Shown here piece by piece: positions 92 to 64,000 of a DNA stretch of 64,000 nucleotides (position 1 is its first letter; each line of letters starts with the position of its first letter). The notes under the pieces were generated by a model. That model was not told the DNA's origin. It searched no databases and saw nothing but the letters and a program-made list of their open reading frames with translations. The translations under genes and the position numbers were made by a program. Origin of the DNA: Chloroflexota bacterium (GTDB lineage: Bacteria > Chloroflexota > Anaerolineae > DUEN01); assembly GCA_013152435.1 (NCBI GenBank), contig JAADGJ010000106.1, positions 1 through 64,000 of the forward strand, written 5' to 3'.

Positions 92-132
92 CCCCCCTCA
101 GACACCTTGCCGGTACATTTTCAGACACGCCC
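92..132. repeat. Solo right end of the ~240-bp GAG-ended repeat family
   Basis: This segment matches the right-hand end of the repeat at 1614-1872 (CCTCAGACACC, TGCCGGTA, TTTTCAGACACGC). Nothing upstream of about 92 resembles the rest of the element, so it is a solo or truncated end. The triplet just outside is TTA, similar to the TNA/TNG triplets flanking the other copies. Confidence 0.7.
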
Positions 133-144
133 TTAGATGCCTAT

Positions 145-1592: not shown

Positions 1593-1613
1593 TCGTCGCC
1601 ACACCACGCCTAA

Positions 1614-1872
1614 GAGTGTCTCTGAGAAATGCCATTGCTTCTGCCGTGGGGAGGCCCGGAGGGGCGGCGGAGCCCCTCCGGAAAAAGCCTTTCTCCCGCC
1701 TTCAACCTGCCTGGCCTCGGCCTGGGCCCTTCGGAAAGGGCCGAGAAAGGCAGGTGCAGGCAGGAAAAAATAGGCTTCCGTGGAGGGGAGATCCCCTCCA
1801 CACCACCCCCTGTAGAGCTGGTAGCTGAGGGAGACCCTCAGACACCGTGCCGGTAAATTTTCAGATACGCTC
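1614..1872. repeat. MITE-like repeat, copy A (259 bp)
   Basis: It starts GAGTGTCTCTGAGAAATG and ends, read on the opposite strand, GAGCGTATCTGAAAAT, which gives imperfect terminal inverted repeats. Inside are a GTGGAGGGGA/TCCCCTCCAC hairpin and long pyrimidine and purine arms (CTTTCTCCCGCCTTC with CGAGAAAGGCAGG). Flanking triplets are TAA on the left and TCA on the right (one mismatch). It is in opposite orientation to copies B and C. It contains no coding potential and accounts for most of the gap between the M20 and threonine synthase genes. Confidence 0.8.
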
Positions 1873-1931
1873 TCAGGGGGAACTCTCCTCCATACCTCCC
1901 TCTGGGGCGCGCCTACCGTGAAGACGCGACG

Positions 1932-13410: not shown

Positions 13411-13633
13411 ACGATCACGGCGGGAGATCCCGCCGCGCGTTCAGCCTCCACCCGGGAGATCCGTAAACACAACGCCTTGCGCTGCAATCCCAGCGCTCAT
13501 GAGCATAGACGTGGCAAACCGGTGAACTCTTACTCACAGAACAGGGAATGAGAGAGGTGAGGGCACACGATTATGAGGGGAGCATACTCACAAGAGGAAA
13601 ACAACCAGGAGAAGCCTCCGCCCATCTCGCTCA
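13411..13633. other. Gap upstream of DUF3179 gene
   Basis: No gene is supportable here. It must contain the DUF3179 promoter on the minus strand, but I see no convincing -35/-10 pair. A GAGGGCACACGATTATGAG segment near 13558 faintly resembles the GGGCACAC hairpins at 4149 and 4244. Confidence 0.4.
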
Positions 13634-13871
13634 GAGCATGTCTGAAAATTTACCGGCAAGATGTCTGAGGGTCTCCCTCAACCCCGGCTCCACAGGGGGA
13701 GGTGTGGAGGGAACCTCCCCTCCACGGAAATCCCACTTTTCCGGCCTGTACCTGCCTTTCTCGGCCCTTCCCGAAGGATCCAGGCCGAGGCCAGGCAGGT
13801 CGAAGGCAAAAGAAGGGCTTTTTCCGGAGGGCTCCCCACAGCAGAAGCAACGGCATTTTTCAGGCACACTC
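13634..13871. repeat. MITE-like repeat, copy B (238 bp) with TCA direct repeats
   Basis: The left end is GAGCATGTCTGAAAATTTAC; the right end read on the minus strand is GAGTGTGCCTGAAAAATG. The triplet TCA flanks both sides (13631-13633 and 13872-13874). The right-hand TCA is, on the minus strand, the TGA stop codon of the anti-sigma gene. The inside carries the same GTGGAGGG hairpin and pyrimidine/purine arms as copies A and C. Confidence 0.85.
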
Positions 13872-14159
13872 TCAGGCAACGGCTTTCAGGGCAAGAAGAA
13901 GCGCCTCGAATTCCTCTCGGCAATCGTGGCAGCGATTCAGATGATCCTGGACTAAAGGCATCGCCTCGGCCGCGTCCTTGCCGGCCAGGGTCAACTCCAC
14001 GAATCGATCCAACTGCTCGAAACACTCGTCGCAACCGATCTCATCCGGGCGCGTGGACAGGATCCCCCGGACCATCTGCCCGAGGGTCTCGGGATCGATC
14101 GGCATCCCGCCCGCGGGATCCTCCCGGCGGAAAACCTTGCGCAGCCACCGTCGAATCAT
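13872..14159 (-). CDS. Zinc-finger-type anti-sigma factor
   Basis: A 95-residue protein with a CDECFEQLDRFVELTLAG segment and a HLNRCHDC (H-x3-C-x2-C) motif. This is the zinc-binding anti-sigma pattern that precedes a helix holding the cognate sigma factor. No membrane segment is present, so it is a soluble type (redox or zinc-responsive members are known in the family). It lies 42 bp downstream of the sigma gene on the same strand and is almost certainly its partner. Its TGA stop codon is also the flanking triplet of repeat copy B, so the repeat begins directly after the gene. Confidence 0.82.
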   Translation of the reverse strand: MIRRWLRKVFRREDPAGGMPIDPETLGQMVRGILSTRPDEIGCDECFEQLDRFVELTLAGKDAAEAMPLVQDHLNRCHDCREEFEALLLALKAVA

Positions 14160-14201: not shown

Positions 14202-14828
14202 TTACCCCTCCGGCGGGCCAAACGCCGTCAGCAACTCCTCCGGCGACATCCCCTCGGCGATCATGCGGCGCTTCAGCCGCTGCCGGGCGTCATGCAGAAG
14301 CTTGTACAGGGCGTTGCGGTTGGTGCCCATCCGCCGCGCCACCTCCTCCAGCGGCATCCCGTGAATCCGCACGGCGACCAGGGCCAGCCGCTGCCGCTCG
14401 GTCAGCTCCTCCCGGATCATGCGGCCGAGCATCTCCAGCAACGAATTCTGCACCGCCCGCTGCTCCGGCCCCACGGCCGGGTCGGTCAACAGGCGCGGGA
14501 CGAATCCGGCGCCGGCGGCCTTCTCCACCATCGCGTCCAGAGAGCGATCCCGCCATCGGCGGCGCCGCAGCTCCGTGAAACTCACTCGCACGGCGATCTT
14601 CTGCGCCCAGGTGGTGAAACGGCTCTCCCCCCGGAAGGAACCCAGACCGCTCAGGACCTTGAGGAGGGCCTCCTGCACAAAGTCCTCCAGGTCGGCCTCG
14701 CGCACGCCGTGGTCGGCCAGCGCGTATCCCAGCCCGCGCAGAAGGATGGCCCGCAAATCCGCCAGGGCCTCGTCACGCTGAGGCCCGCGCAGGGCGGCCA
14801 GCCACTCCTCGTTGGTGCGTTCGGCCAT
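14202..14828 (-). CDS. Sigma-70 family (ECF-like) RNA polymerase sigma factor
   Basis: 208 residues with region 2 at about 45-90 (LEDFVQEALLKVLSGLGSF; RFTTWAQKIAVR) and region 4 at about 140-192 (LTERQRLALVAVRIHGMPLEEVA, with a GTNRNALYKLLHDARQRLKR recognition helix). Region 3 is absent, so it belongs with ECF-type alternative sigmas. The start is ATG at 14828, directly after GGGGAGGGGACCTC; the open frame extends further upstream into repeats but has no family match there. A TTGCCC/TATAAT promoter lies just upstream, so the pair is read by housekeeping sigma. Partner: the downstream zinc anti-sigma. Confidence 0.9.
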   Translation of the reverse strand: MAERTNEEWLAALRGPQRDEALADLRAILLRGLGYALADHGVREADLEDFVQEALLKVLSGLGSFRGESRFTTWAQKIAVRVSFTELRRRRWRDRSLDAMVEKAAGAGFVPRLLTDPAVGPEQRAVQNSLLEMLGRMIREELTERQRLALVAVRIHGMPLEEVARRMGTNRNALYKLLHDARQRLKRRMIAEGMSPEELLTAFGPPEG

Positions 14829-14900: not shown

Positions 14901-15636
14901 CAGGAGCGCCCACGCTGCCAACAGGCCGGGCATGAGAGCCCGGTCTGCTGACATCCCACAAGCACCAAGGGAGGGCAGATTTCCATATCTGCCCTCTACC
15001 ATTGAAAGCAGCGGCAGCACCCACGCTGCCACCCGGCCAGCAGAGGCGGCTATGGAAAGCCGCCCTACTGCTATGATGTCGATCGCTCGGAACTCGTCAA
15101 CACCAAGGGAGGGCAGATTTCCATATCTGCCCTCTACCTTTGAAAGCAGCGGCAGCTCCCACGCTGCCACCCGGCCGGACGTGGAGGCCCGGCCTGTTGG
15201 CATCCCACAAGCACCAGGTGAGGGCAGATTTCCCTATCTGCCCTCACCCCCGGAAATCGTCAGGCTGCTATGATATCGATCGCTCGGAACTCGTCAGTCC
15301 GGCTCGTGGCCCAGGTGGATGACCAGTCACCCGGCCGGGCATAGGAGCACCAGGGGAGGGCAGATTTCCATATCTGCCCTCTACCCTTGAAAGCAGCGGC
15401 AGCTCCCACGCTGCCACCCGGCCGGGCATGAGAGCCCGGTCTGCTGACATCCTACAAGCGCCAGGGGAGGGCAGATTCCCATATCTGCCCTCCCCCTTGA
15501 AAGCAGTGGCAGCTCCCACGCTGCCACCCGGCCGGGCATGAGAGCCCGGTCTGTACAAGCACCAAGGGAGGGCAGTATGGCAGAGGCGGCTATGGAAAGC
15601 CGCCCTACTGCTATGATATCGATCGCTCGGAACTCG
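14901..15636. repeat. Array of palindromic modules
   Basis: Five kinds of short module recur. m1: GGGCAGAT/ATCTGCCC stems with a six-base loop, at 14973, 15111, 15222, 15358 and 15469. m2: GGCAGC/GCTGCC with a CCCAC-type loop. m3: CCGGGC/GCCCGG around ATGAGA. m4: GGCGGCT/AGCCGCC around ATGGAA. m5: a non-palindromic CTATGATATCGATCGCTCGG block followed by AACTCGTCA. The m1 start-to-start distances are 138, 111, 136 and 111 bp, so there is a higher-order pattern. No gene is supportable in it. Confidence 0.85.
15266..15326. repeat. Duplicated 3' end of the GH114 gene inside the array
   Basis: This 61-bp segment repeats 15609-15669 almost exactly. It covers the flank plus the stop codon and last ten codons of the beta-helix/GH114 gene (TCAGTCCGGCTCGTGGCCC on the plus strand). 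The copy differs at two visible positions in the coding part, then breaks off into m3 sequence. Confidence 0.85.
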
Positions 15637-17949
15637 TCAGTCCGGCTCGTGGCCCGGGTGGATGATCAGCCGATCCAGATCGCGCACGGTGACGAAGGGC
15701 ACGTACCCCTTGGCCCTCGATCTGGCGTAGGCGTCGTCCACGTGCACCGGCGTGGTGGCGTAGTCGATGGTCAGCACGAGCTTGCCGGCGCGCTTGAACA
15801 CATCCAGATACCGCTCCAACTCCGCGGTCACCTCCGGCGGCGTGGGCCGGTCGTCCCCCTCGTAGCCGTAATAGATGTCCTCCTGGCCGATGCCGTCCAC
15901 GCTGTCCAGGTATCCCGGCACCCGCGTCGCCAGTTCGGGCGCGTTCTGCACGAAGATGTAGAAATCGGGATCGCGCCGGCGGGCATGAGCGGCGATGGCG
16001 GCTACGAAGTCGACCATCTCCCGGGCGGCCGACGTGCGACCCCGATCGGCGTAATACTCGTACGCGTCGATGAGGTCCAGGTACGCGCCATCGAATCCAG
16101 CATCGAGCAACCGATCCGTATATTGAAAGATGATCGCCTGCCAGGCCGGGTCCCAGTAATGCACCTTGTAGTTGCCCGGCCAGTCGGGATTCTCCCCATC
16201 CAGCCACGGCGGGTTGCCCGGGCGCCAGTCGTCCTGCCAGTAGAAGCGGTAATCCTCCGCCTCGCCGATGCTCATGTAGGCCAGCACGATCTTCTCGCCG
16301 CCGGAGCTGTGCTTCAGCACCTCAATCTGCGCGGCCGTGAACTCGCCCGCCTCCGTCCCATCCGCGGAGTAGTCCATGATGACCAGATCATAGGCCGTCG
16401 CACCGATGGCGGCCAGGTCCAGGTTCTGGAGCTGATACAGGAAATCGTTCACCAAGGAAAGGGCGGACGACGCGGAGCCCCCGGGGCCGCGCAGGATCAC
16501 CGGCAGGAAGGCCCGGATCTCGGGCGGCCGATACTCATACGGGCCGATATCCGGCGCGCTCCCCACCGGCCGCGGGCGGCCGTCCAGGTCCCTGGGCGGC
16601 GCCCAGGCCGCGATCCCCGCGTCCACCGCGGGGCTGTCGGCCGTCAGATGGAAGTCCTTGCCGGCCGCGTTCACGAACAGCGGATCCGCGTAGGCGCTGT
16701 GCTCTCCCTGGCCGGATCGGGCGAACCAGGTGCCGTCGTTGATCTGGGCGCCGCTGAAGCAGGTGCCCGCGCCCAGGAAGTCGGCGCAGATGACGTCAGA
16801 CTCCCGATAGGGGTTGTAGTAAAGGTTGTGGTCGGCCTGGAGCCGGACGCCGGACGAGAAGAAGACCGTCGTCCCGCCCATGACCGGGTTGTCGTTATAG
16901 AAGATGGTGTTGTACAGGCGGACGGGGGTCTCCGCGGCGTAGTCGTCCTCGCCGAACACGGCCAGGTAGCCGTACGTCCGCCGGTTGGCGATCAGGCTGT
17001 TGGTGATCGTGTAGCTGCCGCCGCCGGAGAGCACCAGATTGGTCAGGCCGGCGTCCACGGCCAGCCCGTTGATCAGGCTGCTGCGCTCGCCCCATAGCTT
17101 GATGTTGTTGCGAGCGTTGTTCCGGGCGATCACCCGGCGCAGGGTGGTGCCGGTGGACTTGAAGTCGAAGCCGTCGCCCGCGTTGCCCGACGCCTCGCAG
17201 TCCTCCACCAGGATGTCGTCGCCGCGCTCGATGGCGATGCCGTCCGCGGCGGTGTCCCCGCCCCCCGAGCCGTTGTTCATGGCGCGCACGCGGCGCAGGA
17301 CCCAGTGCCTGCACGGCCCGATCCCGCAATCCATGCCCACCAACGTGTTATCGTGGATGTAGACGTCCTCCACGGTAATGTAGTCGCTGTCCTGGTAGAA
17401 CTGGATCGCGCCGGAGCCGCAATCGTAGAACTCGGCGTTCCGCACCGTGATGTGGTCGCTATCCCGCCAGGAGGTGATGCAACTGCCGTCCCCGCCCTCG
17501 TCGTGCCAGTGGCGCATGTTCAGCCCGACGATGGTGATGTGGGACACGCCGTCGCCCAGGTCGAACGCATATTTCCAATCAATGCCCTGGCCGTCTAGCC
17601 AGACCGTCTCGCCCGGGTAGGCCGCGTAGGTGATGGGCCGGCCCGGCTCGCCGGAGCGGGTCAGCCGGACGTGTTGATGGTAGACGCCGCCGCGCACGTA
17701 GACGGTATCGCCGGGCTGGAGCACGTCGGCGGCGTGTTGCAGCGTGGCCCAGGGCCGGGTCAGCGTACCGGGGTTCGCGTCATCGCCGTCGAGGGCGACG
17801 TAGTAGGTGGACCCGAGGAGGCCGGCCGAGCGCGCGGCGACGACGGGGGACGAGCCGCTCACCGGCGGCGCCGGCATGCAGGCATCCCACAGGAGGATCA
17901 GCGCCAGCAGGAGCGGAACGAGCCTGCCGGGCATTGGCCCAATCATCAC
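15637..17949 (-). CDS. Exported right-handed beta-helix / GH114 (TM1410-like) glycosidase fusion
   Basis: 770 residues. An N-terminal hydrophobic signal (LVPLLLALILLWDAC, possibly a weak lipobox) is followed by a beta-helix of about residues 48-480. The helix opens STYYVALDGDDANPGT and has repeated VRN..F..CGSGAI coils. The C-terminal ~270 residues match the GH114 / TM1410-type barrel (LVIMDYSADG, IVLAYMSIGEAEDYR, FDGAYLDLIDAYEYY, GIGQEDIYYGYEGDD). GH114 members include endo-alpha-1,4-polygalactosaminidase. The beta-helix may bind or cleave a polysaccharide. The start codon lies seven bases after the vapC stop with AGGAGG between, so it may be translated from the vapBC transcript. Its 3' end is partly duplicated in the adjacent array. 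Confidence 0.85.
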   Translation of the reverse strand: MMIGPMPGRLVPLLLALILLWDACMPAPPVSGSSPVVAARSAGLLGSTYYVALDGDDANPGTLTRPWATLQHAADVLQPGDTVYVRGGVYHQHVRLTRSGEPGRPITYAAYPGETVWLDGQGIDWKYAFDLGDGVSHITIVGLNMRHWHDEGGDGSCITSWRDSDHITVRNAEFYDCGSGAIQFYQDSDYITVEDVYIHDNTLVGMDCGIGPCRHWVLRRVRAMNNGSGGGDTAADGIAIERGDDILVEDCEASGNAGDGFDFKSTGTTLRRVIARNNARNNIKLWGERSSLINGLAVDAGLTNLVLSGGGSYTITNSLIANRRTYGYLAVFGEDDYAAETPVRLYNTIFYNDNPVMGGTTVFFSSGVRLQADHNLYYNPYRESDVICADFLGAGTCFSGAQINDGTWFARSGQGEHSAYADPLFVNAAGKDFHLTADSPAVDAGIAAWAPPRDLDGRPRPVGSAPDIGPYEYRPPEIRAFLPVILRGPGGSASSALSLVNDFLYQLQNLDLAAIGATAYDLVIMDYSADGTEAGEFTAAQIEVLKHSSGGEKIVLAYMSIGEAEDYRFYWQDDWRPGNPPWLDGENPDWPGNYKVHYWDPAWQAIIFQYTDRLLDAGFDGAYLDLIDAYEYYADRGRTSAAREMVDFVAAIAAHARRRDPDFYIFVQNAPELATRVPGYLDSVDGIGQEDIYYGYEGDDRPTPPEVTAELERYLDVFKRAGKLVLTIDYATTPVHVDDAYARSRAKGYVPFVTVRDLDRLIIHPGHEPD

Positions 17950-43775: not shown

Positions 43776-44014
43776 GAGTGTGTCTGAAATTTACCGGCAA
43801 GGTGCCTGAGGGGGCTCCCTCAGCTACCAGCCCCACAGGGGGAGGTGTGGAGGGGGCCTCCCCTCCACGGAAATCCCACTTTTCCGGCCTGCACCTGCCT
43901 TTCTCGGCCCTTCCCGAAGGACCCGGGCCGAGGCCGGGCAGGTCGAAGGCAGAAGAGGGACTTTTTCCGGGGGGCTCCCCACAGCAGAAGCAACGGCATT
44001 TCTCAGACGCGCTC
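43776..44014. repeat. MITE-like repeat, copy C (239 bp) with TAG direct repeats
   Basis: It starts GAGTGTGTCTGAAATTTACC and ends, on the minus strand, GAGCGCGTCTGAGAAATG. TAG flanks both ends (43773-43775 and 44015-44017); the left TAG is the stop codon of the upstream gene. Internal hairpins GTGGAGGGGG/CCTCCCCTCCAC and pyrimidine/purine arms are as in the other copies. After it, 44030-44095 carries an ACCGCAGAGACGCC...GGCGGTG inverted repeat. Confidence 0.88.
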
Positions 44015-44165
44015 TAGGGGATACTGACAAACCGCAGAGACGCCGGGGGCGCGGAGAATTGAGCATCTCCACGCTCTCTGCGCCTCGGCGGTGCATCTTC
44101 ATCATCAAACTCCTAGCCTTCACTGCACATGAAAGTGCCCAACCAGATTTGGGCAGGAGGCGACC

Positions 44166-63624: not shown

Positions 63625-63855
63625 GTGATCCCCCTTTCAATCGGCCGAGAGGTGTTGCCCCTCCTGATGTCCACTGCGCAATGGTGAGCACTCTCAACCA
63701 GGATGCCAGGAGCGTTTGGAGAGGTGATCCGACGTTGAGATGGACGATACGCGGGCACACGGCAATCCCTATTGTACCATGGAGAGCCCGGGAGCGAAAG
63801 TGAACGCGATCCCGGCTCGCCTCGCCCGGCAGACAGATCATCCGGCCAGGTCTCA

Positions 63856-64000
63856 GAGAGTATCTGAGAAAAGCCGTTGCCTCTGCCGTGGGGAGGCCCG
63901 GAGGGGCGCTGCCCCCCCGGAAAAAGCCCTTCTTCCGCCTTCGACCTGCCCGGCCCCGGCCCGGGTCCTGCGGAAAGGGCCGAGAAAGGCAGGTACAAGC
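63856..64000. repeat. MITE-like repeat, copy D, cut by the window end
   Basis: It begins GAGAGTATCTGAGAAAAGCC after a TCA triplet (63853-63855) and continues with the GGGGAGGCCCGGAGGGGC, CTTCTTCCGCCTTCGACC and AGGGCCGAGAAAGGCAGG blocks of copy A, in the same orientation. Its right end lies outside. The rest of the gap 63625-63855 holds only the weak RpiR promoter. Confidence 0.8.

Follow-up and report, generated by a model that had tools for sequence, protein, structure and literature searches.

Two interleaved families of REP-type hairpins in an intergenic array of a Chloroflexota genome

Layout of the array and a rule common to its hairpins

The window analysed here, a whole stretch of 64,000 nucleotides, covers positions 1-64000 of contig 106 in a Chloroflexota assembly of 4.97 Mb and 149 contigs. 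Between a gene for an ECF-type sigma factor with Sigma70 r2 and r4 domains, which starts at 14828 on the minus strand, and the 3' end of a GH114/beta-helix gene (15637-17949, also on the minus strand) lies an array of short hairpins at 14901..15636. A re-scan of this region found the same hairpin modules, m1 to m4, where the initial annotation had placed them. Specifically, m1 (REP-A1) is present as five copies on the plus strand with 6-nt loops, at 14970..14997 (GGAG-GGCAGAT-TTCCAT-ATCTGCC), 15108..15135, 15217..15248 (loop TTCCCT), 15355..15382 and 15464..15495 (loop TCCCAT). A plain hairpin scan recovers all five, and direct-repeat analysis reveals a further, truncated copy at 15555..15575 (+) that consists of the left arm only and is fused to m4. 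The m2 hairpins (REP-B), also on the plus strand, are at 15013..15030 (variant loop ACCCAC), 15151..15168 (GCAG-CGGCAGC-TCCCAC-GCTGCC), 15398..15415 and 15506..15527, with a degenerate m2 at 14902. Located on the minus strand are m3 (REP-B), at 14926..14943 (GCAG-ACCGGGC-TCTCAT-GCCCGG), 15173..15194 (a variant with loop CTCCAC), 15422..15439 and 15532..15549, and m4 (REP-A2), at 15044..15065 (GTAG-GGCGGCT-TTCCAT-AGCCGCC) and 15584..15605.

Read on the strand with the pyrimidine-rich loop, all four types follow one rule, namely a 5'-GNRG tetranucleotide, a 7-nt arm, a 6-nt loop YYYCAY and a complementary arm, with the first base of the 7-nt arm being unpaired or weakly paired in m2 and m3. A search of the window for 6-nt YYYCAY loops with at least six stem pairs returned 14 hairpins, 13 of them inside the array. 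When the pattern GNRG-N7-YYYCAY was required, again with at least six stem pairs, all 11 hairpins in the 64 kb fell inside it. The same pattern was absent from 36 of 40 dinucleotide shuffles of the window and occurred once in each of the other four. Thus, the array is real and far above chance expectation.

The initial annotation had observed that two hairpin types share the loop core TTTCCAT/ATGGAAA despite differing stems and had proposed that the loop is conserved. The shared core is indeed seen in m1 and m4, which carry T-TTCCAT-A in opposite orientations, and loop conservation extends further than proposed, since the loops of m2 (TCCCAC) and m3 (TCTCAT, minus strand) are also related and all four types therefore fit YYYCAY. 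In a set of 40 distinct sequences, every one of the seven stem pairs varies on both sides by compensatory changes while the loops hold; the loop C, the loop A and the G that precedes the stem are invariant. Note that the hairpins had been selected for pairing and by loop class, which in part builds in both the pairing percentage and the invariant C and A of the loop. The enrichment of the tetranucleotide is unaffected by this selection, the hairpins for that count having been picked by stem and loop with the 5' flank ignored: GNRG precedes 33 of 37 hairpins of the m2/m3 kind (family B) and 17 of 26 of the m1/m4 kind (family A), against a background of 5%.

Two families, their inverted doublets and the growth of the array

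The hairpins fall into two families. Family A (m1 and m4) has the loop TTCCAT, a closing T-A pair and GGAG or GTAG as tetranucleotide, and family B (m2 and m3) has the loop TCCCAY, a closing C-G pair and GCAG or GCGG. The 5' tetranucleotide typical of GTAG-type REPs is present, with m4 and the copies that flank a RAYT gene (see below) carrying GTAG and family B the GYRG forms; the m1 copies of the array mostly carry GGAG, which lies outside the published degenerate forms (GYAG, GYRG), and with GGAG in place of GTAG they may be poor substrates. Both families form inverted doublets of the REPIN/BIME kind that fold, as DNA, into two hairpins and occur in this genome and several others. REPIN-A pairs m1 with m4 (GKAG, loop TTCCAT) as GTAG-GGCAGGT-TTCCAT-ACCTGCC, a 5-11 nt spacer and GGCGGCT-ATGGAA-AGCCGCC-CTAC, or close variants, and is present in this genome, in a same-genus genome and in genomes of several other Anaerolineae families. 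REPIN-B pairs m2 with m3 (GCAG, loops TCCCAC/TCTCAT) as GCAG...CTGC with a 2-4 nt spacer and recurs in other Anaerolineae genomes; in the array, the m2 at 15398 and the m3 at 15422 form an intact REPIN-B.

As expected of REPs, these are palindromes of 20-40 bp repeated across the genome and mostly intergenic, the intergenic position having been read off individual loci. For example, m1 has 26 genomic sites at three or fewer mismatches (0 for the reversed-pattern control) and m2 has 74 (control 15), and a covariance model of both families run over the same genome gave at least 53 matches at E<=0.001 and at least 97 at E<=0.01. The modules are thus dispersed well beyond the array, which disposes of the possibility, left open by the initial annotation, that they are found nowhere else. 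In the class as a whole, an exact family A pattern is patchily distributed, being found in 21 of 396 members, and its reversed control was zero throughout. A genome of the same genus (G001) has 32 family A copies and Anaerolineales UBA3082 has 20, where the reversed control was again 0. The near-identical GTAG-GTCCGGT-TTCCAT-ACCGGAC copies in G170, a distant class member, suggest recent activity in that genome. Further tandem REP-A arrays occur elsewhere in our genome at G000:C35:3000-3900, G000:C122 and G000:C12:142900-143500, with units of ~100, ~115 and ~85 bp, respectively.

The m1 copies are spaced, start to start, by 138, 111, 136 and 111 bp, as the initial annotation had reported in proposing that larger units were duplicated, and then by 101 bp to the truncated copy. 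We likewise read the composite as duplicated. The unit repeated is either m1-m2-m3 (111 bp) or a version with m4, its outer flank or both (136-138 bp), and the units are 75-99% identical to each other. The first m1-m4 pair of the window suggests how the composite arose. The spacer of the REPIN beside the RAYT gene is TACCATTG; in the array pair, CTC-TACCATTG is followed by 40 nt of family B sequence, which include the m2 at 15013, and then by m4. The simplest reading of this occupied site is that a REPIN-B would have been inserted into the spacer of a REPIN-A. The m4 outer flank is first seen at 15068..15099 (+; TATGATGTCGATCGCTCGG...) and forms part of the non-palindromic block that had been counted, next to the four hairpin types, as a component of the array. 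The hairpin types stand, and the block as an independent module does not: it joins the m4 outer flank to the final 30 bp of the GH114 coding sequence, with the original at 15608..15669 (+; stop codon 15637-15639) and a 97% identical copy at 15265..15326 (+). A search for it as a separate module turned it up in this array and, next to an m4-type REP, in a same-genus genome, and nowhere else. The copied gene end within the block shows local duplication, and REP clusters that take up neighbouring DNA have been described (PMC3733652). When the sigma factor was used to look for this locus in genomes of the same genus and family, only distant paralogues (~25-35% identity) were found. The window also holds an unrelated dispersed repeat of ~270 bp, at 13629-13874 (-), 1613-1876 (+), 43776-44015 (-), 63855-64000 (+) and 93-136 (+), which is MITE-like, has GTGGAGGGG..CCCCTCCAC palindromes and is 83-89% identical to a copy located between two family B sites (L078).

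The position of the array directly upstream of the sigma factor gene, together with promoter-like matches near and within it, would fit a regulatory region of that gene, in which the hairpins serve as conserved sites of protein binding or RNA regulation. However, the same modules sit in many unrelated intergenic contexts in both orientations, the array hairpins have no match in Rfam, and the copies are degenerate and truncated in an array that includes a copied gene end; we consider this explanation very unlikely. A role in transcription termination, also proposed initially, found no backing, as intrinsic terminators are not enriched (one terminator-like site versus 0.4 expected).

RAYT genes and family A hairpins

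The initial annotation had called for a search for a REP-associated tyrosine transposase, and a PF01797 search of the genome returned two genes, one of which, on contig C91, is a clear RAYT flanked by REP-A. The gene encodes a complete RAYT, scoring 149.5 bits with NF047646 (cut-off 80), and matches PDB 4ER8 (E = 5e-26 over 157 residues), the structure of the E. coli TnpAREP. The alignment keeps the HxH motif, the region of the catalytic tyrosine and the equivalents of W94, Q95 and R104, residues that contact GTAG in E. coli TnpAREP (PMC6006769). The gene has family A hairpins to either side, with a textbook REPIN on one of them. Its closest relative, 55% identical, is in Anaerolineales UBA3082 and is directly flanked by GTAG-GGCAGGT-TTCTAT and GTAG-GTCAGGT-TTCTAT, one on either side. 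In a scan of 116 RAYT/Y1 loci (PF01797/NF047646 genes), GNRG-guided loops of the family A type were found only at these two genes, and a RAYT flanked by REPs of its own family, the arrangement of a REPtron, was seen for family A only, at the same two places. A 47% identical relative in G029 has GTAG hairpins with a different loop. Hairpin and enzyme thus appear to change together, in the few cases that the sequences offer.

Twenty further RAYT-type regions yielded one family A hairpin, ~1 kb from the gene (G050:C394), and 60 stretches with family A copies in other class members had no RAYT of the C91 type beside them. For family B, neither this genome nor the same 20 regions, which come from genomes with model matches, had a RAYT beside a copy. 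At the level of whole genomes the link is weak, with an over-cut-off RAYT in 6 of 12 model-positive versus 13 of 48 negative genomes, and G001, with its 32 family A copies, has no RAYT above 57 bits. Possible explanations are loss of the RAYT, action in trans and incomplete MAGs. Other Y1 genes have palindromes of their own. Another Y1-transposase gene of the genome (G000:C49) is flanked on both sides (L231 2557-2589, 3212-3244) by ACCTTTAGGGTTT..AAACCCTAAAGGT palindromes as a separate element, and GTAG hairpins with different loops lie inside the reading frames of the Y1 genes C15 and C143 (L235 3115-3147; L232 1179-1203), similar to the REP insertions described within tnpAREP genes (PMC6006769).

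Subterminal hairpins with a 5' guide serve IS200 TnpA as well as the closely related RAYTs (PMC6006769), and the hairpins might instead be ends or MITE-like remnants of IS200/IS605 elements moved by a classical TnpA. The hairpin-flanked gene fits the RAYT model and the TnpAREP structure, and inverted doublets with outward GTAG/CTAC are typical of REPINs; within the PF01797/NF047646 genes covered by the scan, an IS200/IS605 origin appears highly improbable. Least probable is an assembly artefact, for although arrays of near-identical copies assemble poorly and this MAG is in 149 contigs, the unit copies differ by substitutions and single copies and doublets occur on many contigs and in other genomes; the exact copy number of the array could nonetheless be wrong.

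Origin of the array and comparison with known systems

Overall, the array is a local cluster of two REP-type mobile hairpin families, in line with the REP/BIME-like family suggested by the initial annotation, which genome-wide dispersal, the 5' tetranucleotide, inverted doublets and a hairpin-flanked RAYT in the same genome all bear out. It is a new example of an already known bacterial selfish repeat and not a new kind of element. Taken as a whole, we are confident in an account in which both families occur as inverted doublets, family A is most likely served by a C91-type RAYT, family B probably moves in the same way, and nesting was followed by tandem multiplication. Specifically, family A is most likely a substrate of the C91-type RAYT/TnpAREP HuH-Y1 enzyme, which, by analogy with characterized relatives, would use the GNAG guide and the loop to recognise the hairpin in single-stranded form, and would nick and rejoin DNA at the hairpin edge. 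Family B has the same architecture and is probably moved in the same way, by an enzyme that the search of RAYT-type loci did not turn up. REPIN-B material in the spacer of a REPIN-A is consistent with insertion of one doublet into the other, and the composite, together with 62 bp reaching into the neighbouring gene end, was then amplified in place through tandem duplication and deletion, which produced the 111 and 136-138 bp periods; recombination, slippage or the RAYT itself are candidate causes. For the host, a neutral, selfish repeat is the default assumption. RAYT-driven activity is what we infer from sequence for these REP families. A bolder proposal, possible though doubtful, is that the RAYT of this lineage reads loop and guide and not the stem, that one enzyme type serves REPs with diverged stems, and that two coexisting populations, GTAG/TTCCAT and GCAG/TCCCAY, insert into one another, the enzyme of the second being unrecognised or acting in trans.

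These results provide a clear REP-RAYT pair in the Anaerolineae, a group for which REPs are sparsely described in the literature searched, where no paper was found that combines 'repetitive extragenic palindromic' with Anaerolineae. The recognition code is legible from sequence, with guide and loop fixed and the stem free save for pairing, so whether RAYT recognition depends on loop or stem can be tested directly in a new enzyme. The array further illustrates how nested REPINs can give rise to compound arrays of hairpins and to copies of gene ends. What it adds is this legible rule, two interleaved families and, so far, a family B without an enzyme.

The GTAG-tagged REP superfamily includes Chloroflexi members, such as GTAG-23 of T. 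roseum (PMC3733652). Our hairpins resemble its members in being short, with an unpaired 5' tetranucleotide, head-to-head doublets and clusters that include flanking DNA, and, set against the superfamily as described there, they differ in their conserved 6-nt loops, variable stems, the GCAG of family B and the frequent GGAG of family A. The E. coli REP/BIME-TnpAREP system (4ER8; PMC8266576) has an enzyme of the same family, whose HxH motif, region around the catalytic tyrosine and W, Q and R contacts to GTAG are kept in ours, whereas the stem bulge of its REPs is absent here; loop sequence is unimportant for recognition in E. coli (PMC8266576). As in Pseudomonas REPINs, the dispersed unit is two inverted REPs with outward tetranucleotides, and the interleaving of two REPIN families in one array sets the present case apart (PMC3116915). 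Finally, the group 3 REPtrons of Stenotrophomonas and Marinomonas have perfect palindromes with loops of 3-4 nt, compared with 6 nt here, in which loop positions are essential for cleavage (PMC8266576). This loop dependence fits the conserved loop of our hairpins, and suggests, as a prediction by analogy, that their recognition would be loop-dependent as in the group 3 systems.
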